Positions 1,779-20,074 of a DNA stretch of 64,000 nucleotides are shown here, in pieces. Position 1 is the stretch's first letter, and every line of letters begins with the position of its first letter. The stretch is from Jatrophihabitans sp. GAS493 (lineage in GTDB: Bacteria; Actinomycetota; Actinomycetes; Mycobacteriales; Jatrophihabitantaceae). The DNA lies in NCBI RefSeq assembly GCF_900230215.1, contig NZ_LT907982.1, positions 1,860,001 to 1,924,000 of the forward strand. The letters run 5' to 3'. The position numbers were made by a program, and so were the translations under genes. The notes under the pieces were generated by a model. It had not been told where the DNA came from. It did not search any database and saw only the letters and a list, made by a program, of their open reading frames with translations.

Positions 1779-1796
1779 GTTAATCCCCTGTTCAGG
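1779..1796 (+). promoter_or_regulatory. PHO box upstream of pstB
   Basis: GTTAATC and GTTCAGG begin 11 nt apart in the intergenic gap before pstB, matching the 11-nt unit spacing of actinobacterial PhoP sites. The second repeat deviates from GTTCACC at the last two positions. The site lies about 120 nt upstream of the pstB start chosen here. Confidence 0.55.
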
Positions 1797-2814: not shown

Positions 2815-2816
2815 CC

Positions 2817-5019: not shown

Positions 5020-5074
5020 TCACGCAATTCTCTGCTCGTCCCGTCCGTCGATTCGTCCTAGTCAGGAAGTTGCA

Positions 5075-6772
5075 ATGTCCAGACCTTCGCGGTTCAACCG
5101 CCGCCCGCAGCGGGCTGACGCCCGCTTCGCCACGGCGCAGCGAGTGGGTGCCGTCCTGCTCGCCGTAGCTGCGACTCTGCTGCCGATCCACTCGGCCTCA
5201 GCGGCCAGCACCGCGCAGATTCTAGGCACCGGTTCGTCCTGGTCGGCCAATGCGATCAACCAGTGGATCGCCGACGTCCACGCGCAGGGCCTCCAGGTGG
5301 TGTACACCCCGGTGGGTTCAGCCCAGGGCCGGACCGACTACGCCGCCTACCAGAACGATTTCGCCGGCAGCGACATCGGCTACCAGGGCACCGACTCGCA
5401 GTCCGGTGCGCAGGACGTCTCCAATCGACCGTATGCCTACCTTCCGGTGGCGGCTGGCGGTACGGCGTTCCCTTACCAGATCGTGGTAGGCGGAAAGCGA
5501 ATCACGAACCTCCGCCTCTCTGGCCCGACACTGGCTGGCATCTTCACCGGGCAGATCACCAACTGGAACGACCCCACGATCACCAAGGACAACAACGGTG
5601 TGAAACTCCCGTCTAAGACCATCATCCCGGTGGTGCACTCCGAAGGTGCCGGTTCCACAGCGCAGTTCACCCGCTACCTCGCCACCGAGTTTCCAGCCCT
5701 GTGGAACAGTTTCAACGGCTCCCCGGGAATGACCGAGTACTACCCGGTGAAGGGGCACATGGTTGCGGCCAGCGGCTCCGACGGCGTTATGAACTATGTG
5801 ACGTCCAAAGCCGGTGACGGCACGATCAGCTACGACGAGTACTCCTACGCGCTCGGGGCGGGCTACCCGGTCGCCAAGATCGAGAACAAGGCGGGGGTCT
5901 TTACTCTGCCGACGCAGTTCAACGACGCGGTGGCCCTGACCCAGGCCCAGATCAATATGAACCCGGCGTCACCGGACTACCTGCTGCAGAACCTCGACAA
6001 GGTCTATACATACTCCGACCCGCGAACATATCCGCTCTCGTCGTACTCCTATGCGATCATCCCGACAGACCCTAACGATTCGCGGATGACGGTCAGCAAG
6101 CGTCAGACGCTGGTGGACTTTCTCTCTTACTCCATCTGTACCGGGCAATCCGAACTCGGGCCGATCGGCTACTCGTCCCTTCCGCTGAACCTTGTCCAGG
6201 CCGGCTTTACCCAGATCGCCAAGTTGCAGACGTCGGACAAAAAGGTGACGCTGAGCGCCAAGCCAATCGCAACTTGCCACAACCCGACCTTTGATCCGGC
6301 CAAGCCCACCAGCAACAAGCTGGCGCTGATCGCGCCGATGCCTCCGGCGTGTGATCACGCCGGCCGCGGTCCCTGCGGCGATGACACCAGCACGGGCGCG
6401 GCGAACAACTCGCCCACGGCGACCACGGGCAAGACCGCCAGCACCTCGAACTCCGGCAAGGTCGCCGAGGCAGGCTCCCTCACGAACACAGCGGGCGCGG
6501 CGACCGGCGGAGGTGCCGGTGCCGGTGCCGCGAAGGCGACGAAGGCAGCGGCAATCGATCCGGAGACAGGACAGCCGGTCTCTGATTCGAGTGGCGACGG
6601 GTCAGGCGCCGATTCGACCGTGGCCCCGACCGGTGCGGAGCTTGCGGCATATAAGAGCCCGAGCAGCAACACTCCATACGCCTATCTGGCCGGCGTGATG
6701 CTCCTGCTGGTTCTCGTGGTGCCCCCGCTGGTAATGCGGCGACTGCGGCGTCCGAACGGCGACACGCGATGA
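5075..6772 (+). CDS. tail-anchored PstS-like phosphate-binding protein
   Basis: 565 residues from ATG 5075, preceded by AGGAAG; an upstream in-frame start at 4940 would overlap pstA. Signal peptide about 1-44 (cut near SASA/AS), then a PstS-like two-lobe fold beginning GTGSSWSANAINQWI. Recognisable lobe motifs are FAGSDIGYQG, LSGPTLAGIFTGQITNWNDP and HSEGAGSTAQFTRYL, the last two close to PstS phosphate-contact segments. Residues about 430-530 form a Ser/Thr/Ala/Gly linker, then one transmembrane helix (about 535-553) and an Arg-rich tail. Anchoring by a C-terminal helix instead of a lipobox is unusual for PstS. Position directly after pstA suggests it is the transporter's ligand-binding partner. 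Confidence 0.88.
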   Translation: MSRPSRFNRRPQRADARFATAQRVGAVLLAVAATLLPIHSASAASTAQILGTGSSWSANAINQWIADVHAQGLQVVYTPVGSAQGRTDYAAYQNDFAGSDIGYQGTDSQSGAQDVSNRPYAYLPVAAGGTAFPYQIVVGGKRITNLRLSGPTLAGIFTGQITNWNDPTITKDNNGVKLPSKTIIPVVHSEGAGSTAQFTRYLATEFPALWNSFNGSPGMTEYYPVKGHMVAASGSDGVMNYVTSKAGDGTISYDEYSYALGAGYPVAKIENKAGVFTLPTQFNDAVALTQAQINMNPASPDYLLQNLDKVYTYSDPRTYPLSSYSYAIIPTDPNDSRMTVSKRQTLVDFLSYSICTGQSELGPIGYSSLPLNLVQAGFTQIAKLQTSDKKVTLSAKPIATCHNPTFDPAKPTSNKLALIAPMPPACDHAGRGPCGDDTSTGAANNSPTATTGKTASTSNSGKVAEAGSLTNTAGAATGGGAGAGAAKATKAAAIDPETGQPVSDSSGDGSGADSTVAPTGAELAAYKSPSSNTPYAYLAGVMLLLVLVVPPLVMRRLRRPNGDTR

Positions 6773-9690
6773 CCCGTCGCCGCAGACCACGCCCGGCAGT
6801 GGGTGCCGCTTCTTCGCGGTTGGGAGTGCTCGCCATCGTTGCCGCCTTCGTTGCCACCACTGGTCTCGTCGGAGCATCTGGATCGCTGTCCACGGCGGCC
6901 GCGGCTACCCCGACGGGGTTCACGACACCTGCGCCGATCGAGATGACCCGAACCCATCTCGTCGACGGGAAGGAAGATCCAGTAGACACCCGCAACGTCA
7001 CGCTGAAGGTCGACGTGACGAAGGATCTCTACGACCAGCAGCGCATCGCGGTCAGCTGGGCGGGTGCCCACCCGAGCGGGCATGTGAGCTTGAACCCAAA
7101 TGCTTCGCAGGCCTACACGGCGGAGTACCCGATGGTGCTGCTGCAGTGCCGTGACGTGCCGGGCAGCAATGGTGTGATCAACACGGCGAACCCGGAGGTC
7201 GATCCCACGACGTGTTGGTCACCCTCAACCGGCAGCCGAACTCAGCTGAACGTGGCAACCTTCGACGACACGGTGAAGCCGCCAGCTTTCGTGGACACGC
7301 TGCCGGCCTGGCGGCTCGATCGCTACGCCGACCCCGCTGATCGGGTTCAGTACGCACACGAACCCGCATCCACATCTCCGCTGTGCCCCGACTCGGCGGA
7401 TAACCCCGCGGAGTACCGGCTTCCCTTTGTCGCCGCTGACGGCACCAAGTACTACGGCTCAGGCATCGGCGCGACGAACACGGCCTGTGGGCCGCAGCCG
7501 CCGGAGGCTGCGGCGCAGGCCGATGGGTCGGTCTCCAACCTTCCCGACAACTCCACCTTCGCCACCACCAATGCCGACGGGACGGGGTCTGCCCTCTTCA
7601 GCGTGCGGAACTCGCACAGCAATGCGTCCCTGGGTTGCTCGGTGACCGTGGCCTGCTCGATGGTCGCGATTCCGATCATGGGTATCAGCTGCGATGGTGG
7701 CGCAGGGTTGCCGGCGGCTGATTTGCCGAAGCCGACCGACGACGATCCCTGGTACGGCGACGTTGATCCGACCCGCCTGCAGGATGCCGAGCGAATCTGC
7801 GAGAACACGGGCATCTACGCGCCGGGTAGCCAGTTCGGTAACTCGTCGGTGGCCAGCTATGCCGTCGAAGGGGCGCTGTGGTGGAGTGCCTCCAACTGGC
7901 GCAATCGCATCGTGGTGCCGCTGACCTTCGCACCCGCTGCCGACGTCTGCCAGAACACCAAACAGAGTCTGGCGGTCTACGGCTCCGAACTGCTCGCCGC
8001 CGCCACGGCGTCCTGGTCGGCGCACTTCTGCGCGGACAGCGCAACCCGTCCCTTCACACACGTTCAGCAGCCGGAGCCGCAGGCCCGCCGAACGCTGGCG
8101 GCGAACGATCCTAAGCAGGTCGGCAGTGTGGAGGCGGCATTTACCAGCTACGCGCCCGATACGCCCTACTCCAGAGCGACCGTGCAAGCTCCGGTGGCGG
8201 CGACCGGGTTCGCGATCAGTTACACCATCGACGACAGTTCGAAGAGTCCATATACATCGCTTCGTCTTACGCCGCGACTGCTCGCCAAGTTGATGACTGA
8301 GTCCTATCCGTCACTCGTCGAGGCCACCGACACCAGCAGCAACGGATGGTCCTACCAGTTCCCCGGAACGAAGCAGGTCTCCACCGCCCTGCGGCGCAAT
8401 CCACTGAACATCACCAAGGATCCGGAGTTCATCGCACTCAACCCAGGCATCCCGGACTCTGTGGATTCGGCCGCCGCGTCGACGCTCATCTCGCTCGGCA
8501 CCAATTCGGATGTAGTTCGTGCACTCACCGCCTACATCAATGCCGATCCCGAGGCCCGCGCTTGGCTGGATGGCCGCCCCGACCCGTGGGGCATGGTGGT
8601 CAACCCAGCGTATGAAGGAATCTCGCTGCCGGTTGACGCCTGGCCACTGGACGACACCTGGACGCCCTCGGTTCGCGCCGGCGGTGCCTGCCGAGCGCTC
8701 GATCCGCAGCCGGCCTACCTTCCGCTGGTCAGCTCACCGCTGCAGCATCTCACTGATGTCGCGCAAGCGCTGGTTTACTCGTGGCCATCGAGCCAGGTCG
8801 GCTGTGGTGAGGTCGACGGCACCTCCGGCCAGCAGGTGTTCCGCTACACCCGCGAGCCGATCCAAATTCCCGGCCGCCGTTTCCTCATCGGGCTGACGTC
8901 GCTGTCGGAGGCCGAGCACGATCAACTGCATCTGGCCGCCCTGCAGTCGCAGTCCACCCAGAACCCCGAGGCCATCTTCTCGAACTCGACCGGACGGACC
9001 TTCGTTGAGCCGTCCTCGACCTCGCTGGCGGCTGCGGCGCACCTGCTCACCTATGACTCCGCAACCATGACCTGGCCGACGAACTACAGTGCGATGCGCA
9101 CCAGCAAGGCCGGCGCGACTGCATACCCGGGCTTCATGCTCGTGTACGCGGACATCCCCACCACCGATCTTCCGTCCGGCGACGGGGCGGCCTATGCGAC
9201 CTTGCTGGACTATCTGGTCGGCGCCGGCCAGATAGTGGGGGTGAGCTTCGGTGACCTGCCAGCCGGGTTCCTGCCCATGACGGCAGCGAATGGCCTTGGT
9301 GCCGAGGCCGTGTACACCCTCCGTGCGGCAGCAGCCGTGCGACAGCAGACGGGTCAGGTTCCGCCGCTCGTGCAGGGAGCCGCCGCGCAGCAGCCGCGGT
9401 CGGTTGCGCAGGAGATCACGCCACCGCCGTCGCTTCCGCAGACCGTGGTCGCCGCACAGGCACCGGTCGGAAACACCGTGGTTGGCCCGAGCGTACCGAG
9501 CAGTTCGCCGTCAACGCCGGCTCCGCAGCTTTCGGTCAAGCCGGCCGCGCTTGAATCCAAGGGGAAGACGTCGAGCAGCGCGACCGCCATGGTGATGGTG
9601 CTGCTGATCGTCCTGCTCGGTCTGCTGCTACTCGGCCCGCTCGGTGTACCGCTGATGATCGGGATCCAGCGGTCGAGGTCGGGCCGATGA
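6769..9690 (+). CDS. large anchored exported protein with a PstS-like segment
   Basis: 973 residues; ATGA overlap with the preceding gene. Signal peptide about 1-46, large extracellular part, Pro/Ser-rich stalk about 860-930, then a C-terminal helix (about 940-962) and RSRSGR. A central stretch, VAATGFAISYTID through LRLTPRLLAKLMTESY and NPLNITKDPEFIALNPG, parallels the neighbour's VAAGGTAFPYQI / LRLSGPTLAGIFTGQI / DPTITKD, so a PstS-like lobe is inferred. The first 400 residues are Cys-containing and match nothing I recognise. Coupling to the PstS-like gene and the sortase-fold gene suggests an envelope complex serving phosphate capture. The molecular role is unknown. Confidence 0.72.
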   Translation: MTRRRRPRPAVGAASSRLGVLAIVAAFVATTGLVGASGSLSTAAAATPTGFTTPAPIEMTRTHLVDGKEDPVDTRNVTLKVDVTKDLYDQQRIAVSWAGAHPSGHVSLNPNASQAYTAEYPMVLLQCRDVPGSNGVINTANPEVDPTTCWSPSTGSRTQLNVATFDDTVKPPAFVDTLPAWRLDRYADPADRVQYAHEPASTSPLCPDSADNPAEYRLPFVAADGTKYYGSGIGATNTACGPQPPEAAAQADGSVSNLPDNSTFATTNADGTGSALFSVRNSHSNASLGCSVTVACSMVAIPIMGISCDGGAGLPAADLPKPTDDDPWYGDVDPTRLQDAERICENTGIYAPGSQFGNSSVASYAVEGALWWSASNWRNRIVVPLTFAPAADVCQNTKQSLAVYGSELLAAATASWSAHFCADSATRPFTHVQQPEPQARRTLAANDPKQVGSVEAAFTSYAPDTPYSRATVQAPVAATGFAISYTIDDSSKSPYTSLRLTPRLLAKLMTESYPSLVEATDTSSNGWSYQFPGTKQVSTALRRNPLNITKDPEFIALNPGIPDSVDSAAASTLISLGTNSDVVRALTAYINADPEARAWLDGRPDPWGMVVNPAYEGISLPVDAWPLDDTWTPSVRAGGACRALDPQPAYLPLVSSPLQHLTDVAQALVYSWPSSQVGCGEVDGTSGQQVFRYTREPIQIPGRRFLIGLTSLSEAEHDQLHLAALQSQSTQNPEAIFSNSTGRTFVEPSSTSLAAAAHLLTYDSATMTWPTNYSAMRTSKAGATAYPGFMLVYADIPTTDLPSGDGAAYATLLDYLVGAGQIVGVSFGDLPAGFLPMTAANGLGAEAVYTLRAAAAVRQQTGQVPPLVQGAAAQQPRSVAQEITPPPSLPQTVVAAQAPVGNTVVGPSVPSSSPSTPAPQLSVKPAALESKGKTSSSATAMVMVLLIVLLGLLLLGPLGVPLMIGIQRSRSGR

Positions 9691-10667
9691 CGACGCTTGC
9701 ACCACCACCGGGTCCGCCGCCGCCGCCGGGTCAGCTACCTCCGCCACCGCCGAATCCGCCACCGCCGAATCTGCCACCCCCTGGGGCGGCCCCGACGCAG
9801 CCGGCGAAGGCCGGACGTCGGCCGAGAACGTCCGCTGCGCCGCTGCCAGGTGGCATCCTGGTCGCGGCCTGGATCATGTTCGCCATAAGCGCGCTGGCGC
9901 TGTGGTTGATTGCGTTCACCTTCGGGCTGAGCAGCCTTCAGGCATCCAGGAGCAACGCGGTGTTGTACTCCGAGTTGCGAGAGAACCTCTCCGGCTCTAC
10001 CACGCCCATCGGCGGGCTGATCGCGCCTGGCACTCCGATCGCACTCTTGAAGGCGCCGGCCGCGGGGCTTTCGGGCATCGTGGTGGTTGAGGGGACATCC
10101 TCGGGGCAGCTGACCTCCGGCCCGGGGCATCGGCGGGATACCCCGTTGCCAGGACAGGCGGGGACCTCACTGATCTATGGTCGTTCGCTCACCTACGGGG
10201 CGCCGTTCGCCCATATCGATCACCTCCACCATGGTGACCAGATCACCGTCACCACCGACCAGGGCACCTTCACCTACGTGGTGGAGGGTGTCCGGCACCC
10301 TGGTGACCCGCTGCCGACACTTCTTGCCACTGGCGCGGGCCGACTCACCCTTGAGACGTCGAGCGGCGTCTTCGGGTCGGCCAATACCGTCTACGTGGAC
10401 GCGACCTTGAAGGGCGCGCCGGCCGGGACGCCGTCAGGACGGATGACCGTGGTTCCGCCCGCCGAGAAGGCCATGGGCACTGATAGCTCCGGCCTAGTGA
10501 ACATGATCTTCTGGATGCAAGCACTGCTCGTCGTCTCCGTGGCAATGGTGTGGGCGTGGGTGCGCTGGGGTCACTGGCAGGCCTGGGTGCTCGGCGTCCC
10601 GGCGATCATCTGCCTACTCTGGCTGGTCACTGCGGACGCATCGCTGATGCTCCCTAATCTCATCTGA
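9687..10667 (+). CDS. membrane sortase-fold protein lacking catalytic residues (pseudo-sortase)
   Basis: 326 residues; ATGA overlap with the upstream gene. Cytoplasmic Pro-rich tail (1-35), helix about 55-77, extracellular sortase-like domain about 100-265, then two C-terminal helices. The pattern YGAPF..IDHLHHGDQITVTT..GTFTYVVEGVRHPGD follows class E sortases. The usual GHR catalytic His is replaced by Arg166 (IYGRSLTYGAPF), the catalytic Cys of TLxTC by Ser225 (LTLETS), and the downstream Arg is absent (SANTVYVDATL). Transpeptidase activity is therefore unlikely. It may act as a structural or docking subunit for the two anchored proteins encoded just upstream. The sortase fold is a firm pattern match; the role is inference. 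Confidence 0.78.
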   Translation: MTTLAPPPGPPPPPGQLPPPPPNPPPPNLPPPGAAPTQPAKAGRRPRTSAAPLPGGILVAAWIMFAISALALWLIAFTFGLSSLQASRSNAVLYSELRENLSGSTTPIGGLIAPGTPIALLKAPAAGLSGIVVVEGTSSGQLTSGPGHRRDTPLPGQAGTSLIYGRSLTYGAPFAHIDHLHHGDQITVTTDQGTFTYVVEGVRHPGDPLPTLLATGAGRLTLETSSGVFGSANTVYVDATLKGAPAGTPSGRMTVVPPAEKAMGTDSSGLVNMIFWMQALLVVSVAMVWAWVRWGHWQAWVLGVPAIICLLWLVTADASLMLPNLI

Positions 10668-10777
10668 CCGGCTACCTCATGAACCGGCGTTCTGTCGCGG
10701 ACAGAACCGCCCGCTATTCGAGTTAAATCGGTATTCAGTAAGTCATCCTTAGTCATGACATGAGATAGCCGCAATTG

Positions 10778-10795
10778 GTTCATCCGTGGTTCACA
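10778..10795 (+). promoter_or_regulatory. PHO box upstream of the secreted PstS-like gene
   Basis: GTTCATC and GTTCACA start 11 nt apart, about 80 nt before the ATG at 10875, inside a 207-bp gap that begins a new transcription unit. This is among the closest matches in the window to the GTTCACC unit. Confidence 0.68.
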
Positions 10796-10874
10796 TAGTT
10801 CCGCCTTTACGTACGCTTCGCATCGAGAGTCTGACGCTGTTCCACTTCACCTACTCACGTAGAAAAGGACTCTG

Positions 10875-12065
10875 ATGCAGAAAGCAACTCTCGCCAAGGC
10901 GGGTGTGGGGGGCGCCGTGGCGCTGGCACTCGGCCTGGGGGCATTCAGCCCGGCGGCCTACGCTGACGTTCAGCCTCGCAGCACGGACGCCGTGGCTATT
11001 GGCTCGGACACCGTTCAGTTCATCGGCGACTTCGGCGCCGACGGTGACACCGGAGGCGACCTCGGCTACAACGCGGTCAACACCAGCCACCGTCTCTTCT
11101 CCTTCGACGCCACCTCGGACGCCAGCGGCCGTACCGGCTACGTGAACGGCACCTCGACCGCGCTCGCCAGCTCGGTCGTGCTTCGCGCGGGCACCAAGCC
11201 GATCGTGCGTCCCAACGGATCTGGCGCCGGAATCACGGCGCTGCTGGCCGACACGACGCACCAGATCGACTTCGTCCGTTCGTCGCGTCTGCCCAAGCAG
11301 TCTGAGCAGACTAGCGCGGCCGCCGTTGCCTTCGGCGGCATCCACGTCTTCCAGATCGCGACCGATGGCCTCGCTATCGCCGCCGCCACCACGACCAACT
11401 CGCCGGCCGGGCTCTCTGCCGCTGAGCTGGCCAACATCTACAACGGCACCTACAAGAAGTGGAGCGAGGTTCCGGGCTACTCCGGTTCGCACGGCTCCGA
11501 CGGCATCGTGCCGGTCATCCCGCAGACCGGTTCCGGTACCCGTAACGACTTCATCGCCGACATCAAGACGCAGACCGGAATCGACCTGACCAACACCCTG
11601 GCCAGCAACGTGAAGGTGGCCGAGGAGCACGACCCGACGGGAATCACGGGCGTTGCAACCGGCACGGACGTCAACGGCAACCCGGTCTCGGCCGCTGACG
11701 CGATCTCGCCGTTCTCGGTTGGTCGCTTCAACCTGATCAACTCCGCCTACTTCGGCACCACGCCGGCGCCGAACACGATCCAGCTCGAGACCGGCACCGC
11801 GCCGGACGCGTCAGCTGCCTACTTCCTGCAGCGTCACCTCTACCTGCTCGCCCGCCAGAGCGACGTCACCTCCACGACGCCGTTCCAGACCGGCGGTTCG
11901 GCCAACCTGGTGAACACGCTGTTCGGCAAGGCCAGCAGCTGGTTCGGCAAGGCGGCCAACGCTCCGCTGTTCAACGCAGCGGGCGGCAACCCTGCGGCCA
12001 CCAACCCGAACCTGGTCGGTGTGTCGCAGGCGTGGCAGGATCTCTCCTTCGCATTCTCGGGCTGA
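10875..12065 (+). CDS. secreted PstS-like substrate-binding protein
   Basis: 396 residues; ATG with AAAAGGA upstream. Signal peptide about 1-30 (cut near AYA/DV), no lipobox and no C-terminal helix, so probably released or held by partners. Binding-protein features: AIGSDTVQFIGDF at the start of the mature chain, FVRSSRLPKQ, LSAAELANIYNGTYKKWSEV (equivalent of the PstS LSGxxLAxIFxGxIxxWxD helix) and IPQTGSGTRNDFIAD, which resembles the phosphate-contact loop. It is the third PstS-like protein in 7 kb and the only one with its own PHO box. Ligand phosphate is inferred from the family and context. Confidence 0.8.
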   Translation: MQKATLAKAGVGGAVALALGLGAFSPAAYADVQPRSTDAVAIGSDTVQFIGDFGADGDTGGDLGYNAVNTSHRLFSFDATSDASGRTGYVNGTSTALASSVVLRAGTKPIVRPNGSGAGITALLADTTHQIDFVRSSRLPKQSEQTSAAAVAFGGIHVFQIATDGLAIAAATTTNSPAGLSAAELANIYNGTYKKWSEVPGYSGSHGSDGIVPVIPQTGSGTRNDFIADIKTQTGIDLTNTLASNVKVAEEHDPTGITGVATGTDVNGNPVSAADAISPFSVGRFNLINSAYFGTTPAPNTIQLETGTAPDASAAYFLQRHLYLLARQSDVTSTTPFQTGGSANLVNTLFGKASSWFGKAANAPLFNAAGGNPAATNPNLVGVSQAWQDLSFAFSG

Positions 12066-12125
12066 TCCAGCTCCCCGGTGATCTGGCCTACTTGGCCTGA
12101 TCCAGCATCTCCGATGTAGTCGATT

Positions 12126-12164
12126 GCCGGTGCCCGAGGGCTCATAGAGCCTGACGGCACCGGC
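12126..12164 (+). terminator. hairpin terminator after the secreted PstS-like gene
   Basis: A 9-bp perfect outer stem (GCCGGTGCC / GGCACCGGC) encloses a second 6-bp stem around an ATA loop. It lies 61 bp past the stop at 12065. There is no long T-run, as is common for actinobacterial terminators. Confidence 0.5.
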
Positions 12165-12460: not shown

Positions 12461-14170
12461 GTGAAGATCAAGATGAAGACTGCGATCGGTGGGGTTGGAA
12501 CCTTCGCCGTCGCCGCAGGCATGCTGGTCGTCGGGGCGGCGAACGCGAGCGCAGCTGCGCCGTCGTTCCAGCCGGACCCGAACGCGGCCGGCACCGTCAG
12601 CTTCTACAACGCTGCGGGTGTGCAGATCACCTCCGGCACGCTGAGCGCCAGCCCGTTCGCTGCGTACTACGTCGCTTCGACGCCGGCGCTGTCCAACTCG
12701 GGTCCGAAGGACGCGGCCGTGTTCTACACGCCCGTGCTGGGTCAGGCTCCGGCCGTGTGGCAGACCGGTGACATCGAGACGACCAGCCAGACGCCCGGAG
12801 CGCACCCGAGCTACCCGGGGGCCCTGGCCACCATAACCAACCCGGTGGTCAAGGATGACAGCGGTTTCGCTGACATGCCCGACCACATCTCGAACTTCAC
12901 CAGCACCGACTCCGCAGACCCGAACGTCTACGAAGTTCGTATCTTCGACGGTGTGAACTACTGGAGCTCCGACGTCAAGGTCGACACCGCGGCTGACACC
13001 TGGACCCAGGTGTACCCGACGGTCAAGACTGCGACGACGCTCTCGACCATCACCGCCAACCCGGCCAGCCCGGCCGACAGCGGCTCGACCGTCACGCTCA
13101 GCTCCACGCTGACCGCTGGCGACGCCACCCACCCGGCCGGCACGGTCTCGCTGCTGGACGGCGCAACGACCGTTCCGGGCGCGACGTTCAACGCCGCCAC
13201 CGGTGCTGTCTCCGCCACCGTCAACCCGGCCGATGGAGCGCACAGCTACTCCTTCGTCTTCACCCCGACCGACACCGCTACCTACAACGGCACCACGTCG
13301 GCCACGCTGGCCTACGCGGTCAACGCTCCGGCTCCGGCCGCCGCGACGACCACCGCCGTCAGTGGCCCGACCACCGGCACCGTCGGTAGCCCGGTCACCG
13401 AGCACGCCAACGTGACGTCCGGTTCGCCGGCCGCCGAGCTGGCTGCGGGCAAGGGCTCGGTTCAGTTCAAGGTTGATGGCGCGAACGCCGGTGCTCCGGT
13501 TGCTCTCACCGCGACTGGTGCCGACTTCGCGTACACCCCGGCCGACACCTCGGCGCACGTCATCACCGCGGCGTTCGTCCCGGCTGACGTCACCAAGTAC
13601 CTCGCGTCGTCCGACGCCGCTGGTGTCACGGTCACCGCGACCGCGGCTCTCTACGCTCCGGACCCGCAGACGATCGACGTCAACGTTCCGCAGGGAACGC
13701 TCGTCATCAGCACGCCGTACACCCCGGCCAACCCGTTCCACCTCGGCAACATGACCCTGTCGGCCGATGGCACCTCGTTGACCAGCACCCCGGCCAACTT
13801 CGGTGACCCGGCCGTTGCCGCCTCGGCCACCCCGGGCGTCAACAACGGTGTCACCATCACCGACACCCGCACCGGAAGCACCGGCTGGACCGCTTCCGCC
13901 TCGGTCAGCGACTTCACCAACGGAGCCAACACCATCAACGGTGACGGCCTCAGCTTCACGAACGTCGCCCCGAAGTACATCGTCGGCAACCACATCCAGT
14001 CGGGTGTTACGCCGCACGACATCACCGCGTTCAAGACGGCCGCCAAGGCATTCGCCGTCTCCAACGTGGGCCCGGGCACCGTCGATGTCACCGGAAAGCT
14101 CGCGCTGACCGCTCCGACCTCGACCCTGGCCGGTCTGTACGTCGCCACGATGACCTTCACCATCGTCTAA
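12461..14170 (+). CDS. secreted surface protein with Ig-like repeats and WxL-like C-terminal domain
   Basis: 569 residues from GTG 12461 (GGAGA upstream); a longer upstream extension would bury the signal peptide. Signal peptide about 1-33. Residues about 34-185 form the domain shared with the genes at 16612 and 18518 (SFQPD...AAGTVSFYNAAGVQITSG ... SSDVKVDTAADTWTQVYP). Two Big_3_5-type Ig repeats follow (about 190-385), each with a GTVSLLDG or GSVQFKVDG strand. The last ~165 residues carry ITDTRTGSTGWTASASVSDF and end LAGLYVATMTFTIV, the layout of a WxL domain (W-x-x motif, C-terminal YxAxxTxT strand). WxL domains bind peptidoglycan non-covalently and partner with DUF916 proteins; the next gene encodes one. 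Confidence 0.75.
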   Translation: MKIKMKTAIGGVGTFAVAAGMLVVGAANASAAAPSFQPDPNAAGTVSFYNAAGVQITSGTLSASPFAAYYVASTPALSNSGPKDAAVFYTPVLGQAPAVWQTGDIETTSQTPGAHPSYPGALATITNPVVKDDSGFADMPDHISNFTSTDSADPNVYEVRIFDGVNYWSSDVKVDTAADTWTQVYPTVKTATTLSTITANPASPADSGSTVTLSSTLTAGDATHPAGTVSLLDGATTVPGATFNAATGAVSATVNPADGAHSYSFVFTPTDTATYNGTTSATLAYAVNAPAPAAATTTAVSGPTTGTVGSPVTEHANVTSGSPAAELAAGKGSVQFKVDGANAGAPVALTATGADFAYTPADTSAHVITAAFVPADVTKYLASSDAAGVTVTATAALYAPDPQTIDVNVPQGTLVISTPYTPANPFHLGNMTLSADGTSLTSTPANFGDPAVAASATPGVNNGVTITDTRTGSTGWTASASVSDFTNGANTINGDGLSFTNVAPKYIVGNHIQSGVTPHDITAFKTAAKAFAVSNVGPGTVDVTGKLALTAPTSTLAGLYVATMTFTIV

Positions 14171-14209
14171 CGAACGGTTGGTCATCGACTGACTCTGGTC
14201 AGTGATATC

Positions 14210-14244
14210 GAACAGGGCGGGCAGAAAGTTTGCCCGCCCTGTTC
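14210..14244 (+). terminator. perfect 14-bp stem terminator after the WxL-like gene
   Basis: Arms 14210-14223 and 14231-14244 (GAACAGGGCGGGCA and its complement) flank a 7-nt loop, 40 bp after the stop. The 3' arm ends in GTTC, which is also the first base block of the GTTCA repeats that follow, so terminator and putative operator share sequence. Confidence 0.75.
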
Positions 14245-14270
14245 ATTTACGTTCACCTACGTTCATCTGC
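14241..14270 (+). promoter_or_regulatory. triple GTTCA direct repeat with 10-nt spacing (PHO-box-like)
   Basis: Three consecutive 10-mers, GTTCATTTAC, GTTCACCTAC and GTTCATCTGC, lie 42 bp before the DUF916 gene. The heptamers match the PhoP unit (the middle one is exactly GTTCACC), but the period is 10, not 11, nt. It could be a variant PhoP site or the site of another response regulator. Confidence 0.5.
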
Positions 14271-14311
14271 GGTCTGCGTAATAGACGCCGACGTGAAGTC
14301 CACTTCATCTC

Positions 14312-16429
14312 ATGCCTCGCATCATCCGTCCAACCCATGTCGCATGCCACCGGCGAGCTACGGTCGCCGATGTCCGTCACCCGTTTGCGGTGGTACCCGT
14401 CGCGCTGCTGCTGATCCTCATCTCGTTCATCTGGCCGGTGACCGCGAACGCCGTGACACCGACTCCGGAGCCGACAGGTTCCAAGTCGGCAGCAAAGTCG
14501 GCGCCGGCGAAGGCGACGTTTGGGATCGGACCGGCCACCGGCGGCCGCATCGACAACCGAATCCAGTTCTCGTACCAGATGGCCACCAGCGGCACCTACA
14601 GCGACCACGTGGCGATTCAGAACTACGCCGCCGCACCGGTCGACCTGAGTGTCTACGCGGCGGACCTGGAGAACTCTCTCGATGGTGATCTCGCTGTACC
14701 TGCCGCCTCGGTACGGCCGAAGGAGACCGGCACCTGGATCAAACTCGCCGCACCAAAGCAGACGGTGCACTTGGCGGCAGCCACGACCGGAGGCCCGGGG
14801 CGTGCCGTGCTGCCCTTTACCGTGCAAGTGCCCTACAACGCCTCGCCGGGCGACCACAGCGCGGTGATCGTAGCCTCGCTAACCACCCTCGGTAAGAACC
14901 CGAAGGGGCAGAACATCGCGCTGGACCAGCGCATCGCCACCCGGATCTTCATACGGGTCGATGGCGCCGTGCACGGCCGTCTTGCCATCGACGACCTCAA
15001 AGTCAGCTACGACGGTTCGGCGAACCCCTTGGGCCATGGCAAGGCGCACGTCACCTACACACTGCGCAACAGCGGCAACGTGAAGCTCGGCGCGAAGCAG
15101 GCGGTGAACGTGACCGGCATGTTCGGCACGAAGGCGATTGGACCGGTAATCCCTGACCAGGTTCTGCTGTTGCCGGGTGCCACCCTGCCGATGAGTGTGG
15201 AAATCCTCGACATCACGCCTGCCTTCATGGAGAAGGTTCACGTCGTGACCACGCCGCTAGTGGTGAAGGGCGATCCGGACCCGCACGCACGCGGGGCCAC
15301 CAAGACCGTTTCGTTCTGGGCTATTCCGTGGGCGCTGATCACCACCGTCATCGCCGCGATCCTGCTCATCGTTGCGGCGTACCTGATCCGCCGCTGGCGA
15401 AAGAATCGCCCGACACCGCCGGCCGGACCGCGGGGAGGCGGAATCCGTCCGCAGCCGCCCACCTCCGATCCGGAACCGGAGCCCGCGGCGGCGGAAGACG
15501 ACCACGTCGCTCCAGTGCTGATCGCCGACGCCGTCATTTCGACTCCGCAGCGGCGCCGCTTGGCGTTAGTGAGCGCTGGGGTTGTTCTCGCCGCCGCGCT
15601 GGCTTGGGGCACTTCGGGGGATGCGTCGGCCGCCGCGCTGCCCTACAACGACCCGTCAGTCTCGGGCGGCATCGGTCTGTGCAGTAAGACCGGCACCGAG
15701 ATCACCTCGGGAAACATCAACGATCGCCCGTTCGTGTGGCGTGCCGTGAGCAGCGTCAAGGCGCCGGCGGGGTACGACATCTCCGGGCGGAAGGCGACCC
15801 TGGTCGCCTATCAGCCGCGGCCCAACGTCCAGGCCTACGCATGGAACGGTGACACCCTCACTGCCGCCTCCACTTACACGAATCCCGCGGCGCCAATGGC
15901 CGCGGCAACGAGCCTGGACTTCAGCCTCAATGACTTTATCGGCGAGTTCAAGCCGATGGTCGACGGCCTACTGCAGCTTCGCCTGTACCTCGCCGCTCCC
16001 GGCAGAGACGCGCTCAACACTTCTTACCCGGCCATCAACATCAAGGTGACGGGAAATACCTGGGCGGTTGTGAATCCGGTATCGGTCTCCTGTACGAGCG
16101 GGGACGCCGTCTCGAGCGAGGAGTCGGCGATCGCTCGGACCTCGGCATCGCCAACTGCGGCGCTGCCGAGCCAGGCGAATCCGGCCGCCGGGAAGACCTC
16201 GGGCGCCGCGCACGCTTCGGCGGCGGCCAAGGCAAGTGCCTCGCGCACCGCCGAGGCGTCCGCCGCCCGGGCCACCTCGATTGCCGTGGCGGCGGGGCAC
16301 ACCGACGCCTCGTCGTCCGGCTCGAGTTGGCTGGTCTGGCTGATCGGTGGCGTTGTCGTGATCGGGTTGATCGCTGGTGGCGGGTTCGGCTGGAGGCGCT
16401 ACACGGCTGCGCGCACATCGCGTAGTTAA
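14312..16429 (+). CDS. DUF916 (WxL-interacting-like) membrane protein fused to a second exported domain
   Basis: 705 residues from ATG 14312. Signal peptide ends near VTANA (about 48). Residues about 65-200 match the DUF916 domain of WxL-interacting proteins (ATFGIGPATGGRIDNRIQFSY, DHVAIQNYAAAPVDLSVYA, PYNASPGDHSAVIVASL). A second beta-domain (about 215-325) has the FGTKAIGPVIPDQVLLLPG strand. A helix about 333-358 and a Pro-rich cytoplasmic linker follow. Next comes STPQRRRLALVSAGVVLAAALA, which looks like another signal peptide, and a ~165-residue exported domain (GIGLCSKTGTEITSG ... VTGNTWAVVNP) echoing the N-terminal domain of the neighbouring proteins. An Ala/Ser linker and a last helix (about 670-693) end it. 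The layout suggests fusion of two exported proteins. Confidence 0.8.
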   Translation: MPRIIRPTHVACHRRATVADVRHPFAVVPVALLLILISFIWPVTANAVTPTPEPTGSKSAAKSAPAKATFGIGPATGGRIDNRIQFSYQMATSGTYSDHVAIQNYAAAPVDLSVYAADLENSLDGDLAVPAASVRPKETGTWIKLAAPKQTVHLAAATTGGPGRAVLPFTVQVPYNASPGDHSAVIVASLTTLGKNPKGQNIALDQRIATRIFIRVDGAVHGRLAIDDLKVSYDGSANPLGHGKAHVTYTLRNSGNVKLGAKQAVNVTGMFGTKAIGPVIPDQVLLLPGATLPMSVEILDITPAFMEKVHVVTTPLVVKGDPDPHARGATKTVSFWAIPWALITTVIAAILLIVAAYLIRRWRKNRPTPPAGPRGGGIRPQPPTSDPEPEPAAAEDDHVAPVLIADAVISTPQRRRLALVSAGVVLAAALAWGTSGDASAAALPYNDPSVSGGIGLCSKTGTEITSGNINDRPFVWRAVSSVKAPAGYDISGRKATLVAYQPRPNVQAYAWNGDTLTAASTYTNPAAPMAAATSLDFSLNDFIGEFKPMVDGLLQLRLYLAAPGRDALNTSYPAINIKVTGNTWAVVNPVSVSCTSGDAVSSEESAIARTSASPTAALPSQANPAAGKTSGAAHASAAAKASASRTAEASAARATSIAVAAGHTDASSSGSSWLVWLIGGVVVIGLIAGGGFGWRRYTAARTSRS

Positions 16430-16444
16430 CCAGTCACAGTTTGA

Positions 16445-16462
16445 TTCATCCCCTGTTAACGC
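16445..16462 (+). promoter_or_regulatory. PHO-box-like repeat upstream of the TIG-repeat gene
   Basis: ATTCATC and GTTAACG begin 11 nt apart, 150 bp before the ATG at 16612. It shares the TTCATCCCCTGTTAACG-type core with the site at 18399. The match to GTTCACC is partial (5 of 7 and 4 of 7). Confidence 0.45.
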
Positions 16463-16611
16463 CTGAGTCCTCGCGATGACGGCTTCCGGCTCAGTCTCGT
16501 CTGTCTGACGTTGTGACGCTCGACGTGTCACCTCGCCAGCGGCCATCGACGTCAGTGGTTGACCGCTCGGTGACGCGACCAACTACTGACGAGCCATCAG
16601 GGAGAACTGTG

Positions 16612-18252
16612 ATGATCAGGGTCAAGTCCACCGTCGCCGCGATGGGAGCCCTGGCTCTCACCGCCGGCCTCTTCGTGGTGTCGGCAAACGCCGCATCGGC
16701 CGCGCCACCGTCCTTCCAGCCGGATGCGCAGGCTGCGGGCACCGTTGCCTTCTATAACGCCTCAGGTGTGCAGATCACCTCGGGTTCGCTCAATTCCTCG
16801 CCTTTTGCGGCCTATTACATGGCGTCCACGCCGGTGCCGACGTGGACCGGTGTTCCGGGTGATCCGGACGCTCCCGGTCCCAAGGCCGCGGCGGTTTTCT
16901 ACACGCCGGTGCAGGGTCAGCTGCCGGCGGCCTGGCAGACGGGCGATATCGAGACCTCCAGCCAGACCATCGGTACCCACCCGGGGTACCCCGGCGTGCT
17001 GGCGACCACCACCAATCCGGTGGTGAAGGATGACTCCGGCTTCGCCGACATGACCGACCACATCGCCAACTTCACCAGCACTGACGCGGCGGACCCGAAC
17101 ATCTACGAGGTCCGACTGCTGAACAGCAATGGCCAGCTCTACTGGTCTTCTGACATCAAGGTCGACACGGTCAATAACACGTGGACGCAGGTCTACCCGA
17201 CCGTGGCGGCTGCTCCGGCGGTGACGGCGATCTCGCCGACGTCGGGTCCGATCGCTGGTGGCACGACGGTGACGATTACGGGTACTGGGTTCACTGGTGC
17301 GACGAAGGTGACGTTCGGTACGAAGGCGGCGACGAGTTTCACTGTCGTGTCTTCGACGAAGATCACGGCGGTGACTCCGGCGCAGACGGCGGGGACGCAC
17401 AGCATCACGGTGACGACGCCGGGTGGTACGAGTGCGTTGGTGGCGGCTGATGTGTTCACCGCGACGGCGGCTGCTCCGGCGGTGACGGCGATCTCGCCGA
17501 CGTCGGGTCCGATCGCTGGTGGCACGACGGTGACGATTACGGGTACTGGGTTCACTGGTGCGACGAAGGTGACGTTCGGTACGAAGGCGGCGACGAGTTT
17601 CACTGTCGTGTCTTCGACGAAGATCACGGCGGTGACTCCGGCGCAGACGGCGGGGACGCACAGCATCACGGTGACGACGCCGGGTGGTACGAGTGCGTTG
17701 GTGGCGGCTGATGTGTTCACCGCGACGGCGGCTGCTCCGGCGGTGACGGCGATCTCGCCGACGTCGGGTCCGATCGCTGGTGGCACGACGGTGACGATTA
17801 CGGGTACTGGGTTCACTGGTGCGACGAAGGTGACGTTCGGTACGAAGGCGGCGACGAGTTTCACTGTCGTGTCTTCGACGAAGATCACGGCGGTGACTCC
17901 GGCGCAGACGGCGGGGACGCACAGCATCACGGTGACGACGCCGGGTGGTACGAGTGCGTTGGTGGCGGCTGATGTGTTCACCGCGACGGCGGCTGCTCCG
18001 GCGGTGACGGCGATCTCGCCGACGTCGGGTCCGATCGCTGGTGGCACGACGGTGACGATTACGGGTACTGGGTTCACTGGTGCGACGAAGGTGACGTTCG
18101 GTACGAAGGCGGCGACGAGTTTCACTGTCGTGTCTTCGACGAAGATCACGGCCGTCACTCCGGCCCAGACCGCGGGCGCGCACAGCATTCAGGTGACGAC
18201 ACCGAGCGGGTCCAGCCCGTTGGTTGACGCGGACAAGTTCACTGCCGTCTAA
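16612..18252 (+). CDS. secreted surface protein: shared N-domain plus four IPT/TIG repeats
   Basis: 546 residues from ATG 16612, with GGGAGA 7 bases upstream; a GTG at 16609 is adjacent. Signal peptide about 1-31 (cut near SAA/PP). Residues about 31-198 are the domain shared with the genes at 12461 and 18518 (QPDAQAAGTVAFYNASGVQITSG ... DIKVDTVNNTWTQVYP). Residues 199-546 are four 87-residue IPT/TIG Ig-like repeats beginning AAPAVTAISPTSGPIAGGTT. There is no membrane helix, WxL segment or sorting motif, so retention must be non-covalent or the protein is released. TIG repeats usually act as stalks or adhesive modules; no ligand can be read from the sequence. Confidence 0.78.
   Translation: MIRVKSTVAAMGALALTAGLFVVSANAASAAPPSFQPDAQAAGTVAFYNASGVQITSGSLNSSPFAAYYMASTPVPTWTGVPGDPDAPGPKAAAVFYTPVQGQLPAAWQTGDIETSSQTIGTHPGYPGVLATTTNPVVKDDSGFADMTDHIANFTSTDAADPNIYEVRLLNSNGQLYWSSDIKVDTVNNTWTQVYPTVAAAPAVTAISPTSGPIAGGTTVTITGTGFTGATKVTFGTKAATSFTVVSSTKITAVTPAQTAGTHSITVTTPGGTSALVAADVFTATAAAPAVTAISPTSGPIAGGTTVTITGTGFTGATKVTFGTKAATSFTVVSSTKITAVTPAQTAGTHSITVTTPGGTSALVAADVFTATAAAPAVTAISPTSGPIAGGTTVTITGTGFTGATKVTFGTKAATSFTVVSSTKITAVTPAQTAGTHSITVTTPGGTSALVAADVFTATAAAPAVTAISPTSGPIAGGTTVTITGTGFTGATKVTFGTKAATSFTVVSSTKITAVTPAQTAGAHSIQVTTPSGSSPLVDADKFTAV
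17206..18249 (+). repeat. 261-bp tandem repeat, four copies (TIG-encoding)
   Basis: Units start at 17206, 17467, 17728 and 17989, exactly 261 bp (87 codons) apart. Units 1-3 appear identical base for base on inspection. Unit 4 is identical until about 18150, then diverges to codons ending in C (GCCGTCACTCCGGCC instead of GCGGTGACTCCGGCG). The repeats favour GCG, ACG and GTG codons, while the flanking gene favours GCC, ACC and GTC. Copy number may vary between strains or be miscounted in assemblies. Confidence 0.95.
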
Positions 18253-18278
18253 CTGAAGCAGCTGGTTACAGGTAAAGG

Positions 18279-18310
18279 CGATCGGCCCGGATGTCAATCC
18301 GGGCCGATCG
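18279..18310 (+). terminator. 13-bp stem terminator after the TIG-repeat gene
   Basis: CGATCGGCCCGGA and its perfect complement enclose a 6-nt loop (TGTCAA), 27 bp past the stop at 18252, followed by a moderately T-rich stretch. Confidence 0.72.
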
Positions 18311-18398
18311 TCGTCTGTTTGCGCAATCCCTCGTGCCGCAGACGAGAGCGTTACTGAATGCTGTCGAGGAATCGCAGTATTCGCACCGGAGCCATCGC

Positions 18399-18416
18399 GT
18401 TCATCCCTAGTTAACG
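18399..18416 (+). promoter_or_regulatory. PHO box upstream of the LANTG protein gene
   Basis: GTTCATC and GTTAACG start 11 nt apart, about 100 bp before the GTG at 18518. The first unit matches GTTCACC at six of seven positions. Its sequence closely parallels the site at 16445. Confidence 0.55.
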
Positions 18417-18517
18417 AGACGACACCCGTGAAGTCACCCGGGGGCGAGATTCCGTACGTCTGTCAAGGACAACCTGTGGCAGTCAGAGGAGTTCAACTCT
18501 CACTAGGAGTCCGGTCA

Positions 18518-20074
18518 GTGAAGCTTTTCCACCGCATTAAGCAGGCGCAGAGACGGAGTCTCTCAATTGGGCTCGCGACGGCCTTGACCGTTGTCGTGGG
18601 GTCGGCGCTGATCGTGTCAAGTGACGCCACCGCGGCCGTCGCGGCGCCGCCGTCGTTCCAGCCCGACTCGCACGCTGCGGGCACGATCTCCTTCTACGAC
18701 GCCTCGGGTGCGCAGATCACGTCAGGTTCGCTTGATGCGTCGCCGCTCGCCGCTTACTACATGGCGTCCACTCCCGTCCCGGTCTGGACCGGGATTCCCG
18801 GCGATCCGGACGCCCCGGGACCCAAGGTTGCCGCTGTCTTTTACACGCCGGTGCAGGGCCAGACACCGGCAGCCTGGCAGACCGGCGACATCGAGACGAC
18901 GAGCCAGGTCATCGGTACGCACCCGGGCTATCCCGGCGCGCTCGCGACCACTACGAACCCGGTGGTGAAGGATGACTCCGGCTTCGCGGACATGACAGAC
19001 CACATCTCGAACTTCACCAGCACCGACACCACCGACCCGAACATTTATGAGGTCCGGCTGCTGAACAGCAACGGTCAGCTCTACTGGTCGTCTGATATCC
19101 AGGTCGACACGGTCGCCAACACCTGGACCCAGGTCTACCCGGTCGTCACTGGCGGCGCTACGCCGACGCCGACCCCGGCCGTCACCCCGTCGCCCACGCC
19201 GGTGGTCACTCCGGCTCCGACCCCGGTCCCCACTGCGGCTCCGACGCCAGTGGTCACGCCCACGCCGACCCCGGTTGTCACTCCGGTGCCGACGCCAGTG
19301 GTGACTCCGGCTCCGACCCCGGTGGCGACGGCGGCTCCGACCCCGGTCGTCACACCGACGCCAGCGCCTACTGCGGCTCCGACTCCGGTCGCTACTGCAG
19401 CGCCGACCCCGGTGGTCACTCCGGCTCCGACTCCGGTGGTCACTCCGTCTCCGGCTCCGGTCGTTACGCCGACGCCGGTGGTGACGCCCGTGCCGACCCC
19501 GGTCGTGACGCCCACGCCGACGGTAGCGGCGACCCCGTCACCGACGCCGGTCGCCACGGTGGCCCCGACGCCGGCAGCGTCGCCGGCTCCGTCGCCCACT
19601 CCGGTTCCCGTTGTCACGGCCACGCCGACACCGGGCGCCACGGTTGGCTCGATCACCGACCCGAACGGCGACCCGATCGCCCAGGGGAGCACGCTGACTC
19701 CGGGCCAGTCGCTGAGCATCAGCACATCGGGCTTCGCCCCGGGTGAGAAGGTCACTCCGGTCGTGCACTCCACGCCGATCACGCTGGCCGCGGTCACCGC
19801 GGACGCTGAGGGCAACCTCATCTACGCGTTCACCGTGCCGGCGGGGCTGGAGGGGGGAGCCCACACGCTGGTCCTCAGCGGTGCCCACACCAGCACGACC
19901 TTCAGCTTCCGGATCGACTCGACGGTGACCGGTGCCACCATCACCCCGACCGACCCGAATGCGGCGCTGGCCAACACCGGCTTTGACGCCACCGGCATCG
20001 GTGGCCTGGGTGCGGTACTGGCGCTGCTCGGCGCCGGACTGGTTGCTCTCGCGATTCGCCGCCGGGCCAGCTAG
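18518..20074 (+). CDS. LANTG-anchored surface protein with shared N-domain and Pro/Thr stalk
   Basis: 518 residues from GTG 18518 (AGGAG 8 bases upstream). Signal peptide about 1-43, then the shared ~165-residue domain (QPDSHAAGTISFYDASGAQITSG ... DIQVDTVANTWTQVYP). A ~160-residue stalk of TPxP/VVTP repeats follows (DNA 19159-19632), then a beta-sandwich-like domain (GSITDPNGDPIAQGSTL, about 378-460). The C-terminus has LANTG at 484-488, a hydrophobic helix and RRRAS. LAxTG is the recognition motif of class E sortases (family knowledge), so covalent attachment to peptidoglycan is expected. The only sortase-like gene nearby (9687) is catalytically degenerate, so an active sortase must be encoded elsewhere. 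Confidence 0.82.
   Translation: MKLFHRIKQAQRRSLSIGLATALTVVVGSALIVSSDATAAVAAPPSFQPDSHAAGTISFYDASGAQITSGSLDASPLAAYYMASTPVPVWTGIPGDPDAPGPKVAAVFYTPVQGQTPAAWQTGDIETTSQVIGTHPGYPGALATTTNPVVKDDSGFADMTDHISNFTSTDTTDPNIYEVRLLNSNGQLYWSSDIQVDTVANTWTQVYPVVTGGATPTPTPAVTPSPTPVVTPAPTPVPTAAPTPVVTPTPTPVVTPVPTPVVTPAPTPVATAAPTPVVTPTPAPTAAPTPVATAAPTPVVTPAPTPVVTPSPAPVVTPTPVVTPVPTPVVTPTPTVAATPSPTPVATVAPTPAASPAPSPTPVPVVTATPTPGATVGSITDPNGDPIAQGSTLTPGQSLSISTSGFAPGEKVTPVVHSTPITLAAVTADAEGNLIYAFTVPAGLEGGAHTLVLSGAHTSTTFSFRIDSTVTGATITPTDPNAALANTGFDATGIGGLGAVLALLGAGLVALAIRRRAS
19159..19632 (+). repeat. degenerate Thr-Pro stalk repeat inside the LANTG protein gene
   Basis: About 470 bp of short C-rich units encoding variations of (A/P/V)TP(V/S/A)PTPVVTP. 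Synonymous variation between units (ACG/ACC/ACT, CCG/CCC) shows it is older than the TIG array next door. Expected to be an extended, wall-spanning stalk. Confidence 0.85.

Follow-up and report, generated by a model that had tools for sequence, protein, structure and literature searches.

Why does a phosphate importer of Jatrophihabitans sp. GAS493 stand at the head of a run of genes for wall-type and other exported proteins? The question is raised by a 64,000-nt stretch of this genome (contig NZ_LT907982.1, positions 1,860,001 to 1,924,000 of the forward strand; this whole stretch is called the window, and its own coordinates are used below), in which pstB, pstC, pstA and eight genes for exported or membrane proteins, all on the + strand, span 1918..20074. 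The genome consists of one contig of 4.88 Mb and carries a canonical pstSCAB at 433-437 kb, 1.4 Mb from this locus, which is the second Pst locus of the genome. Together with four neighbouring genes, the importer genes recur as a unit in other actinobacteria. These four encode a PstS-like protein with a membrane anchor (PstS_A), a 973-residue protein (BIG), a pseudo-sortase (PSRT) and a secreted PstS-like protein (PstS_S). We put the probability that the locus encodes a second phosphate importer under Pho control, equipped at the surface for capture and docking, at roughly 55%.

Conservation of the core genes

BIG was found in 37 of 246 sampled genomes of the class, a few of the matches being short (e.g., G060, E 8e-4, and G004), and at 67 named loci. 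The named records belong to Microbacteriaceae, genera of Nocardioidaceae, Streptomycetaceae, Dactylosporangium, Cellulomonas, Frankiales, Pseudonocardiales, Acidimicrobiia and one 'Acidobacteriota'. The distribution is patchy, as no other genome of the window's order in the 246-genome sample has BIG. Thirty-six of the 67 named loci, none labelled Acidimicrobiia, extend for at least 7.5 kb in both directions from BIG and were counted as full loci; the other 31 were kept out of this count. At the full loci, pstC, pstA, PstS_A, PSRT and PstS_S were each found in 36 of 36 cases and pstB in 35, the exception (L042) having a pstB-like frame cut by the end of the stretch. The genes for wall-type proteins were less constant: a WxL-like gene was present at 16 full loci, a DUF916 gene at 15, a domain of ~175 residues that we call NDOM at 12, any of the three at 23, and the WxL-like and DUF916 genes together at 15. 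When all 67 loci were counted, short flanks included, the numbers were 56 for pstB, 59 for pstC, 60 for pstA, 63 for PstS_A, 64 for PSRT, 63 for PstS_S, 25 for WxL-like, 21 for DUF916 and 21 for NDOM.

The constant core is the importer with PstS_A, BIG, PSRT and PstS_S, and the WxL/DUF916 genes are optional. A preliminary description of the window, made from its letters alone, had joined phosphate uptake to a WxL/DUF916 wall complex and had proposed co-occurrence with pst genes as a check. Such co-occurrence was constant for BIG with pstC, pstA and PSRT and inconstant for the pair, which is missing at the Aeromicrobium loci, at many Nocardioides loci and in Streptomyces brasiliensis. WxL/DUF916 as a defining part of the system was rejected, because many full loci lack the pair and it also occurs in numerous other places. 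Where the wall block occurs, its position varies: it lies upstream of pstB in L048 and L060 and is inverted beside the importer in L052 (shorter flanks).

The PstC proteins of these loci also form a lineage of their own. PstC above the family cut-off was present in 37 of 37 BIG genomes, with two or more such genes in 35 of them (counted by eye). In a PstC tree of 85 rows, one branch with a support of 100/100 separated 58 BIG-linked rows from 27 others, each of the latter being the best-scoring PstC of one BIG genome. Three rows (L158-L160) with a matched part of at most 250 residues were dropped, and the tree may therefore lack yet another type of PstC; long-branch warnings applied to L098 (the canonical row of the window's genome) and L069_big1. 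BIG-linked PstC is its own clade apart from the other PstC proteins of the BIG genomes.

Several side observations concern the same genes. A metagenome-assembled genome labelled Acidobacteriota (L050) has the core set, and its PstC groups with actinobacterial rows, which is either transfer or a binning error. In Streptacidiphilus jeojiense (L085:5079-8951), PstA and PstS_A lie within one open frame of 1290 codons; this is a single draft record and may be an error, and if real, the fusion would tie PstS_A to the permease. Three Nocardioides stretches (L053, L065, L069) contain second pst genes, and those of L053 and L069 include PstS_A matches. Clustering of the other frames of at least 100 residues for further conserved neighbours gave mostly shadow frames and small clusters; two clusters were annotated (kinases and transglycosylases, see below), and the others might include phoU or phoR.

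Layout of the locus

The genes of the locus are as follows.

1918..2814, + strand: pstB, ABC (ATP-binding cassette) ATPase; start at 1918 or at a codon upstream, from 1810 (PF00005, 115.5 bits)
2817..3872, + strand: pstC, permease, placed in the BIG-linked clade by the tree (TIGR02138, 251.7 bits; cut-off 196.45)
3850..5019, + strand: pstA, permease (PF00528, 48.1 bits; cut-off 26.4)
5075..6772, + strand: PstS_A, PstS-like protein with a C-terminal membrane anchor (PF12849, 125.3 bits)
6769..9690, + strand: BIG, 973 residues, with an N-terminal domain, a degenerate PstS fold (about residues 397-860), a linker and a C-terminal anchor
9687..10667, + strand: PSRT, class-E-like pseudo-sortase with membrane segments (PF04203, 53.3 bits)
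10875..12065, + strand: PstS_S, secreted PstS-like protein without a C-terminal anchor (PF12849, 64.3 bits)
12461..14170, + strand: WxL-like gene P0005, with NDOM, an immunoglobulin (Ig)-like part and a C-terminal WxL-like domain; start codon uncertain, translated from 12479 (PF13731, 24.7 bits)
14312..16429, + strand: DUF916 gene, with a DUF916 (WxLIP-like) half, a membrane segment, an NDOM half and a second membrane segment
16612..18252, + strand: TIG gene P0007, with NDOM and four near-identical TIG repeats; start at GTG 16609 or ATG 16612 (PF01833, 233.1 bits)
18518..20074, + strand: LANTG gene P0008, with NDOM, a Thr/Pro-rich linker and a C-terminal LANTG signal; start uncertain, 18428 or 18518

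With TIGR02138, PF00528 and PF00005 all above their cut-offs, the PstC, PstA and PstB parts of a putative Pst importer are present. The eight exported or membrane genes do follow pstBCA in one direction, as the preliminary description had said, but the set starts at pstB, and a phosphatase gene (see below) diverges from it. In the window, PstS_A/BIG and BIG/PSRT overlap by 4 bp. A candidate start overlapping the preceding stop by 4 bp was found in 63 of 74 cases for PstS_A/BIG and in 48 of 70 for BIG/PSRT, counts that are biased toward overlap because the candidate start nearest the stop was taken. Among rows with complete ends, a hydrophobic C-terminal segment was present in 64 of 66 PstS_A, 70 of 75 BIG, 65 of 66 PSRT and 0 of 62 PstS_S proteins. 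No RNA family scored above its gathering score in positions 1-26000.

PstS-like proteins

PstS_A exceeded the cut-off of 27 bits for PF12849, fell under that of TIGR00975 (178.5 bits against 205) and matched solved phosphate-binding PstS proteins. Ligand sites, mapped through alignment to the ligand residues of canonical PstS (E. coli numbering), were found to be partly changed. Across 64 rows, Ser38 is kept in 56, an acid at Asp56 in 62, Ser139 in 51 and Gly140 in 64. The Arg135 site holds Arg in 37 rows and His in 24, and the Phe11 site is Trp in all 64. The copy in the window has His at the Arg135 site and Ala for Ser139. In PstS_S, two arginines, R112 (61 of 61 rows) and R135 (59 of 61), lie close to GSG and GSGT stretches, and its weak matches in the PDB include phosphate-binding proteins. 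In a Nocardioides locus without the wall block (L058), Ig-like repeats are fused to PstS_S.

No Pfam family was matched by the window's copy of BIG alone. A structural model built from 38 rows (mean predicted local distance difference test score, pLDDT, of 77.9) placed residues 397-860 on PstS1 of M. tuberculosis (1pc3), with a Z score of 31.8 and 317 aligned residues at 2.8 Å. The BIG profile also matched 1pc3 (E 2e-5) and aligned with the PstS_A profile at 97.6-97.8% probability. In that profile alignment, the part of BIG opposite the RSDGSGT loop of PstS_A lacks the motif, and BIG therefore looks like a PstS fold that does not bind phosphate. Three PstS-like proteins had been predicted for the locus, and this number is right, since BIG joins the two identified by PF12849 through its superposition on PstS1.

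PSRT, a sortase fold without catalytic residues

By sequence, PSRT belongs to the sortase fold (PF04203; cut-off 26.6), and its profile matches the solved sortases 5uus, 5go5, 5go6 and 5cuw, which we take to be of class E. The class E model NF033747 gave 63.7 bits, below its cut-off of 160. At the catalytic sites of the window's protein, His is replaced by R166, Cys by S225 and Arg by V235, which agrees with the earlier proposal of a catalytically dead sortase. The catalytic Cys is present in 0 of 79 rows (the window's copy being counted twice, as query and as L001); the His site is Arg in 73, Lys in 4 and His in 2, and the Arg site is mostly Val. PSRT thus resembles class E sortases in fold and best profile matches, with LAxTG/LPxTG-type protein ends at some loci, and differs from them in the lost Cys and His and in two C-terminal membrane segments read in its sequence. 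The genome of the window has two further sortase genes.

Wall-type proteins

The C-terminus of P0005 scored 24.7 bits against PF13731, just below the cut-off of 25, and its Big_3_5 match of 33.2 bits was also below the cut-off (35.5). For the family, 16 of 23 aligned members matched PF13731 at E ≤1 (best 5.8e-6). The first motif has the consensus W-T-L (W-T-A in the window), and no second Trp occurs in the aligned WxL-like C-termini, which thus have one Trp-x-Leu motif in place of two. The DUF916 segment of the window gave no match to PF06030 by itself; 18 of 21 aligned members did at E ≤1 (best 1.6e-11), and the family profile matched the solved EfmWxLIP1 (9i25, 9i1y) at E 2.2e-7. A family scan based on sequence gave no DUF3324 match in the DUF916 proteins. 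A hydrophobic segment ends 26 of 33 DUF916 rows, and in the window one follows the DUF916 half, as expected of the WxLIP helix.

The window contains four copies of NDOM, one in each of the WxL-like, DUF916, TIG and LANTG proteins; the same search found none elsewhere in this genome. No Pfam family matched it above cut-off, its best Foldseek E value was 0.095, and with VIA the best Z score was 6.0, which may reflect merely a common arrangement. Across the 246 genomes, NDOM was present in 13, of which 11 also have BIG, 9 of these on BIG's contig; this shared N-domain is largely restricted to genomes that have BIG. In the two genomes without a BIG match, NDOM lies on short stretches, G043:C81 (L119) and G127:C98 (L118), which carry no pst genes. 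The TIG-repeat and LANTG proteins are also as first described: P0007 has four TIG repeats, and the C-terminus of P0008 consists of LANTG followed by a hydrophobic stretch and RRR. At the DNA level, the TIG repeats form a tandem array at 17205-18204 with a period of 261 and 98% matches, which suggests recent duplication or conversion. Streptomyces brasiliensis (L084), without the wall block, has an LAxTG protein with an Ig-like domain.

DUF916 relatives are more widespread than BIG, with matches in 85 of the 246 genomes and up to nine per genome; at least 17 of the 37 BIG genomes have one within 12 kb of BIG. At eight other DUF916 places (L121-L128), WxL-like genes lie alongside, and there were no matches to pstC, pstA, BIG or PstS_A. 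ABC ATPases at these places do score with the PstB model, and a weak sortase match was seen in L125.

PHO-box-like repeats

Direct repeats of the GTTCAY type, which we take from Streptomyces work to be the PhoP motif, were scanned for by consensus, with patterns, weights and threshold fixed after inspection of the window. The sites in the window are as follows.

1079..1095, − strand: repeat with 1 mismatch, before the phosphatase ATG
1779..1795, + strand: repeat with 1 mismatch, before pstB
10778..10794, + strand: exact repeat, before PstS_S
14241..14266, + strand: triple of GTTCAY units spaced by 10 bp, upstream of the DUF916 gene
16444..16460, + strand: repeat with 1 mismatch, before the TIG gene
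18399..18415, + strand: exact repeat, before the LANTG gene

GTTMAY-N5-GTTMAY with at most one mismatch occurred five times in the 64 kb against 0.79 expected, and 0 of 100 shuffles reached five. All five precede genes of the locus or the divergent phosphatase gene, the repeat of the latter being upstream only if the gene starts at ATG 1032 and not at the TTG of the longest frame. For the triple before the DUF916 gene, 0.03 was expected. A two-unit model with 11-bp repeats (score ≥15) was run over 1,243,602 bases, i.e., the 67 named loci and the first 26 kb of the window, and gave 48 sites, whereas two sets of first-order random sequences averaged 4.0. These sites lie upstream of pstC (14), PstS_S (12), pstB (3), NDOM genes (2), DUF916 (1) and BIG (1); one is inside DUF916, and 14 are elsewhere. 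The PhoP-type repeats noted earlier upstream of several genes are in excess of expectation and recur at pstC and PstS_S, and the locus has the promoter repeats of a PhoP regulon as putative sites. Long hairpins with T tails follow the WxL-like and TIG genes; the total of such hairpins in the scan, 7 against 4.5, is not unusual.

Neighbouring enzyme genes

One enzyme gene adjoins the locus in the window.

1..1032, running past the window edge, − strand: secreted purple acid phosphatase, divergent from pstB, ~535 residues from ATG (PF00149, PF16656)

Both families were matched on the whole gene, which has the twin-arginine leader SRRSFLAAAG. Between it and pstB, a small gene at 1291-1761 has a weak DUF1508 match, below cut-off; its profile found 20 related frames, several close to pst genes and some doubtful.

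Outside the window, a transglycosylase-type gene (PF13406; L164:1119-2606) adjoins the phosphatase gene. Among the 67 named stretches, 21 contain relatives of it (phmmer, E ≤1e-5), as do 2 of 17 further stretches, and an SLT_2 transglycosylase cluster comprises 15 loci, with PF13406 in the two members scanned. Such a relative was present at 11 of the 13 full loci that lack WxL-like, DUF916 and NDOM altogether and at 5 of the 23 with any of them, a count made without a background control; kinship may explain the pattern, since most of the 11 loci are from Nocardioides and Aeromicrobium. Eleven loci, 10 from Microbacteriaceae and one from Cellulomonas (L064, L083, L086-L089, L091, L093-L095, L097), share a gene family whose member sits just upstream of pstC. 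The two members scanned are PASTA-domain Ser/Thr kinases, and the window has no such kinase beside pstB.

Comparison with known systems

The locus shares with PstSCAB of E. coli and M. tuberculosis (solved PstS 1ixh and 1pc3, PstSCAB 9k3x) the genes for PstB, PstC, PstA and a PstS-fold protein in one run, the PHO-box-like repeats, and the match of PstS_A to PstS chains. It differs in its separate PstC clade, the C-terminal helix on PstS, the second and third PstS-fold proteins and the pseudo-sortase, and in the presence of another PstC in 35 of 37 BIG genomes. We know of no pseudo-sortase, BIG or wall module with the dual Pst systems of Streptococcus pneumoniae. The likeness to that species is that one genome holds two evolutionarily distinct Pst importers, Pst1 and Pst2, according to the available part of PMC4913102. 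PstS-fold proteins outside the cell are described for Pseudomonas, where PstS and DING proteins occur extracellularly or on appendages under low phosphate and one extracellular PstS-fold protein has been proposed to scavenge phosphate for the Pst importer (PMC7922408). That organism is Gram-negative and the architecture unrelated, and the portion of the text available from that source contains no WxL or sortase part.

WxL proteins are reported almost entirely from Lactobacillales and Bacillales in the available part of PMC10599100. As in the WxL clusters with WxLIP (DUF916-DUF3324) described there, a WxL-like gene is followed here by a DUF916 gene with a membrane helix, an LPxTG-type protein is close by, and the EfmWxLIP1 profile match points the same way. 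Unlike those clusters, the module has a single WxL-type motif, no DUF3324 match, NDOM fused or adjacent, and a link to an importer. The terms 'phosphate', 'Pst' and 'actino' are absent from the main text of that source as available, and 'actinobacteri' and 'phosphate' from the accessible part of PMC9772566. DUF916 genes near a copper-binding permease family are reported for Actinomycetota in the available text of PMC12537917, an independent indication of DUF916 in this phylum. By title and start of abstract, we found no publication that brings Pst together with WxL, DUF916 or a sortase-fold protein, in a search of mainly open-access journal articles; two of the articles, PMC12502612 and PMC9723661, contain some of these words.

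Interpretation of the locus

We regard the locus as most likely a Pho-regulated second phosphate importer equipped for surface capture and docking. The importer would probably be switched on by PhoR/PhoP, with PstCAB carrying phosphate across the membrane and PstS_A, held by its C-terminal membrane helix, delivering to it. BIG and PSRT may be scaffolds, probably protein-binding ones, because both folds are kept without ligand loops or catalysis; one possible role is to bring PstS_A or PstS_S to the permease and keep it docked there. The secreted PstS_S could capture a phosphate-bearing anion farther out, and the wall-type proteins, at the 23 of 36 full loci that have them, would fix the apparatus within the wall or set its spacing there. 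Elsewhere, at many loci, a lytic transglycosylase may serve as the wall-related neighbour, and the secreted purple acid phosphatase of the window would supply free phosphate. Of the two readings first offered, a phosphate-starvation surface layer found no support, and a capture scaffold would fit. As a tentative extension, these parts might form a trans-wall phosphate relay of monoderms, from outer PstS-like capture through a BIG/PSRT dock to PstS_A and PstCAB, with wall-binding proteins or a lytic transglycosylase fitting the apparatus into the wall.

Several results weigh against the importer with capture apparatus. WxL, DUF916 and NDOM are all missing at 13 of the 36 full loci, and the DUF916 module is not specific to phosphate, given its presence in 85 of 246 genomes and near BIG in at least 17 of 37. 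The 36 loci are not 36 independent events, because they were found through BIG and include near-copies by the PstC tree (L055/L073, L062/L081, L087/L091). The affinity of the window's PstS_A for phosphate is not assured, owing to the His at Arg135 and the Ala for Ser139. No relatives of the phosphatase were found at E ≤1e-5 in the other stretches searched, and the transglycosylase count has no background to be set against.

The absence of the wall genes from so many full loci also bears on whether WxL-like, DUF916, TIG and LANTG proteins are mere passengers, adhesins that share with the importer only their control by PhoP. This would account for the DUF916 and WxL-like genes elsewhere in many genomes (such as L121-L128), for the separate PHO-like repeats before the DUF916, TIG and LANTG genes and, as far as their ordinary number allows, for the T-tailed hairpins after the WxL-like and TIG genes. 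It sits less well with NDOM, which in 11 of 13 genomes accompanies BIG and in 9 of these 11 shares its contig, and with a block that remains next to the importer even where it is inverted or the order has changed (L048, L052, L060); we find it doubtful, though it deserves serious attention. The ligand could also be another phosphorus compound, with PstS_S and the variant PstS_A binding polyphosphate, pyrophosphate or organic phosphate. The conserved arginines of PstS_S near GSG/GSGT, the His at Arg135 in 24 of 64 PstS_A rows and the Trp for Phe11 in all of them are compatible with this, and the presence of this importer in addition to a canonical one points to a difference in ligand or in condition. 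Both proteins nevertheless match the PBP family, PstS_A matches solved phosphate-binding proteins, and even the weak PDB matches of PstS_S include such proteins, so that we hold a different ligand to be unlikely.

A regulatory platform, in which BIG, PSRT and the binding proteins would sense phosphate or the state of the wall and signal, with transport secondary, seems to us distinctly improbable. A BIG seemingly without ligand loops and a PSRT without catalysis are what proteins acting by contact might look like, another PstC is usual (35 of 37 genomes), and the gene family just upstream of pstC at 11 loci includes PASTA kinases, as the two scanned members show. The transport parts, however, are kept throughout (PstC and PstA at 36 of 36 full loci, PstB at 35), PstS_A retains Ser38, the acid at Asp56, Ser139 and Gly140 in 56, 62, 51 and 64 of 64 rows, and the window lacks the kinase. 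That the genes are chance neighbours without common function is suggested by nothing beyond the mixed kinds of protein families; linkage at 36 of 36 loci across several actinobacterial families, one PstC clade and recurring PHO-like sites leave this explanation a negligible chance. For the core set it was rejected on the linkage counts and the PstC tree.

Taken as a whole, the locus appears to encode an apparatus, not described before, that would capture phosphate at the cell wall when it is scarce. If so, many actinobacteria would possess a second phosphate importer with specialised equipment at the surface, part of it built from dead enzymes and dead receptors that serve as scaffolds. WxL/WxLIP-like modules would be placed in another phylum and in a phosphate-uptake setting, as compared with the Lactobacillales and Bacillales of the available part of PMC10599100. 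Should the relay be true, it would represent a class of importers that have outer parts of their own, in bacteria without a classical outer membrane. The core provides a defined gene set for asking how scarce phosphate gets to the membrane of a cell with a thick wall.

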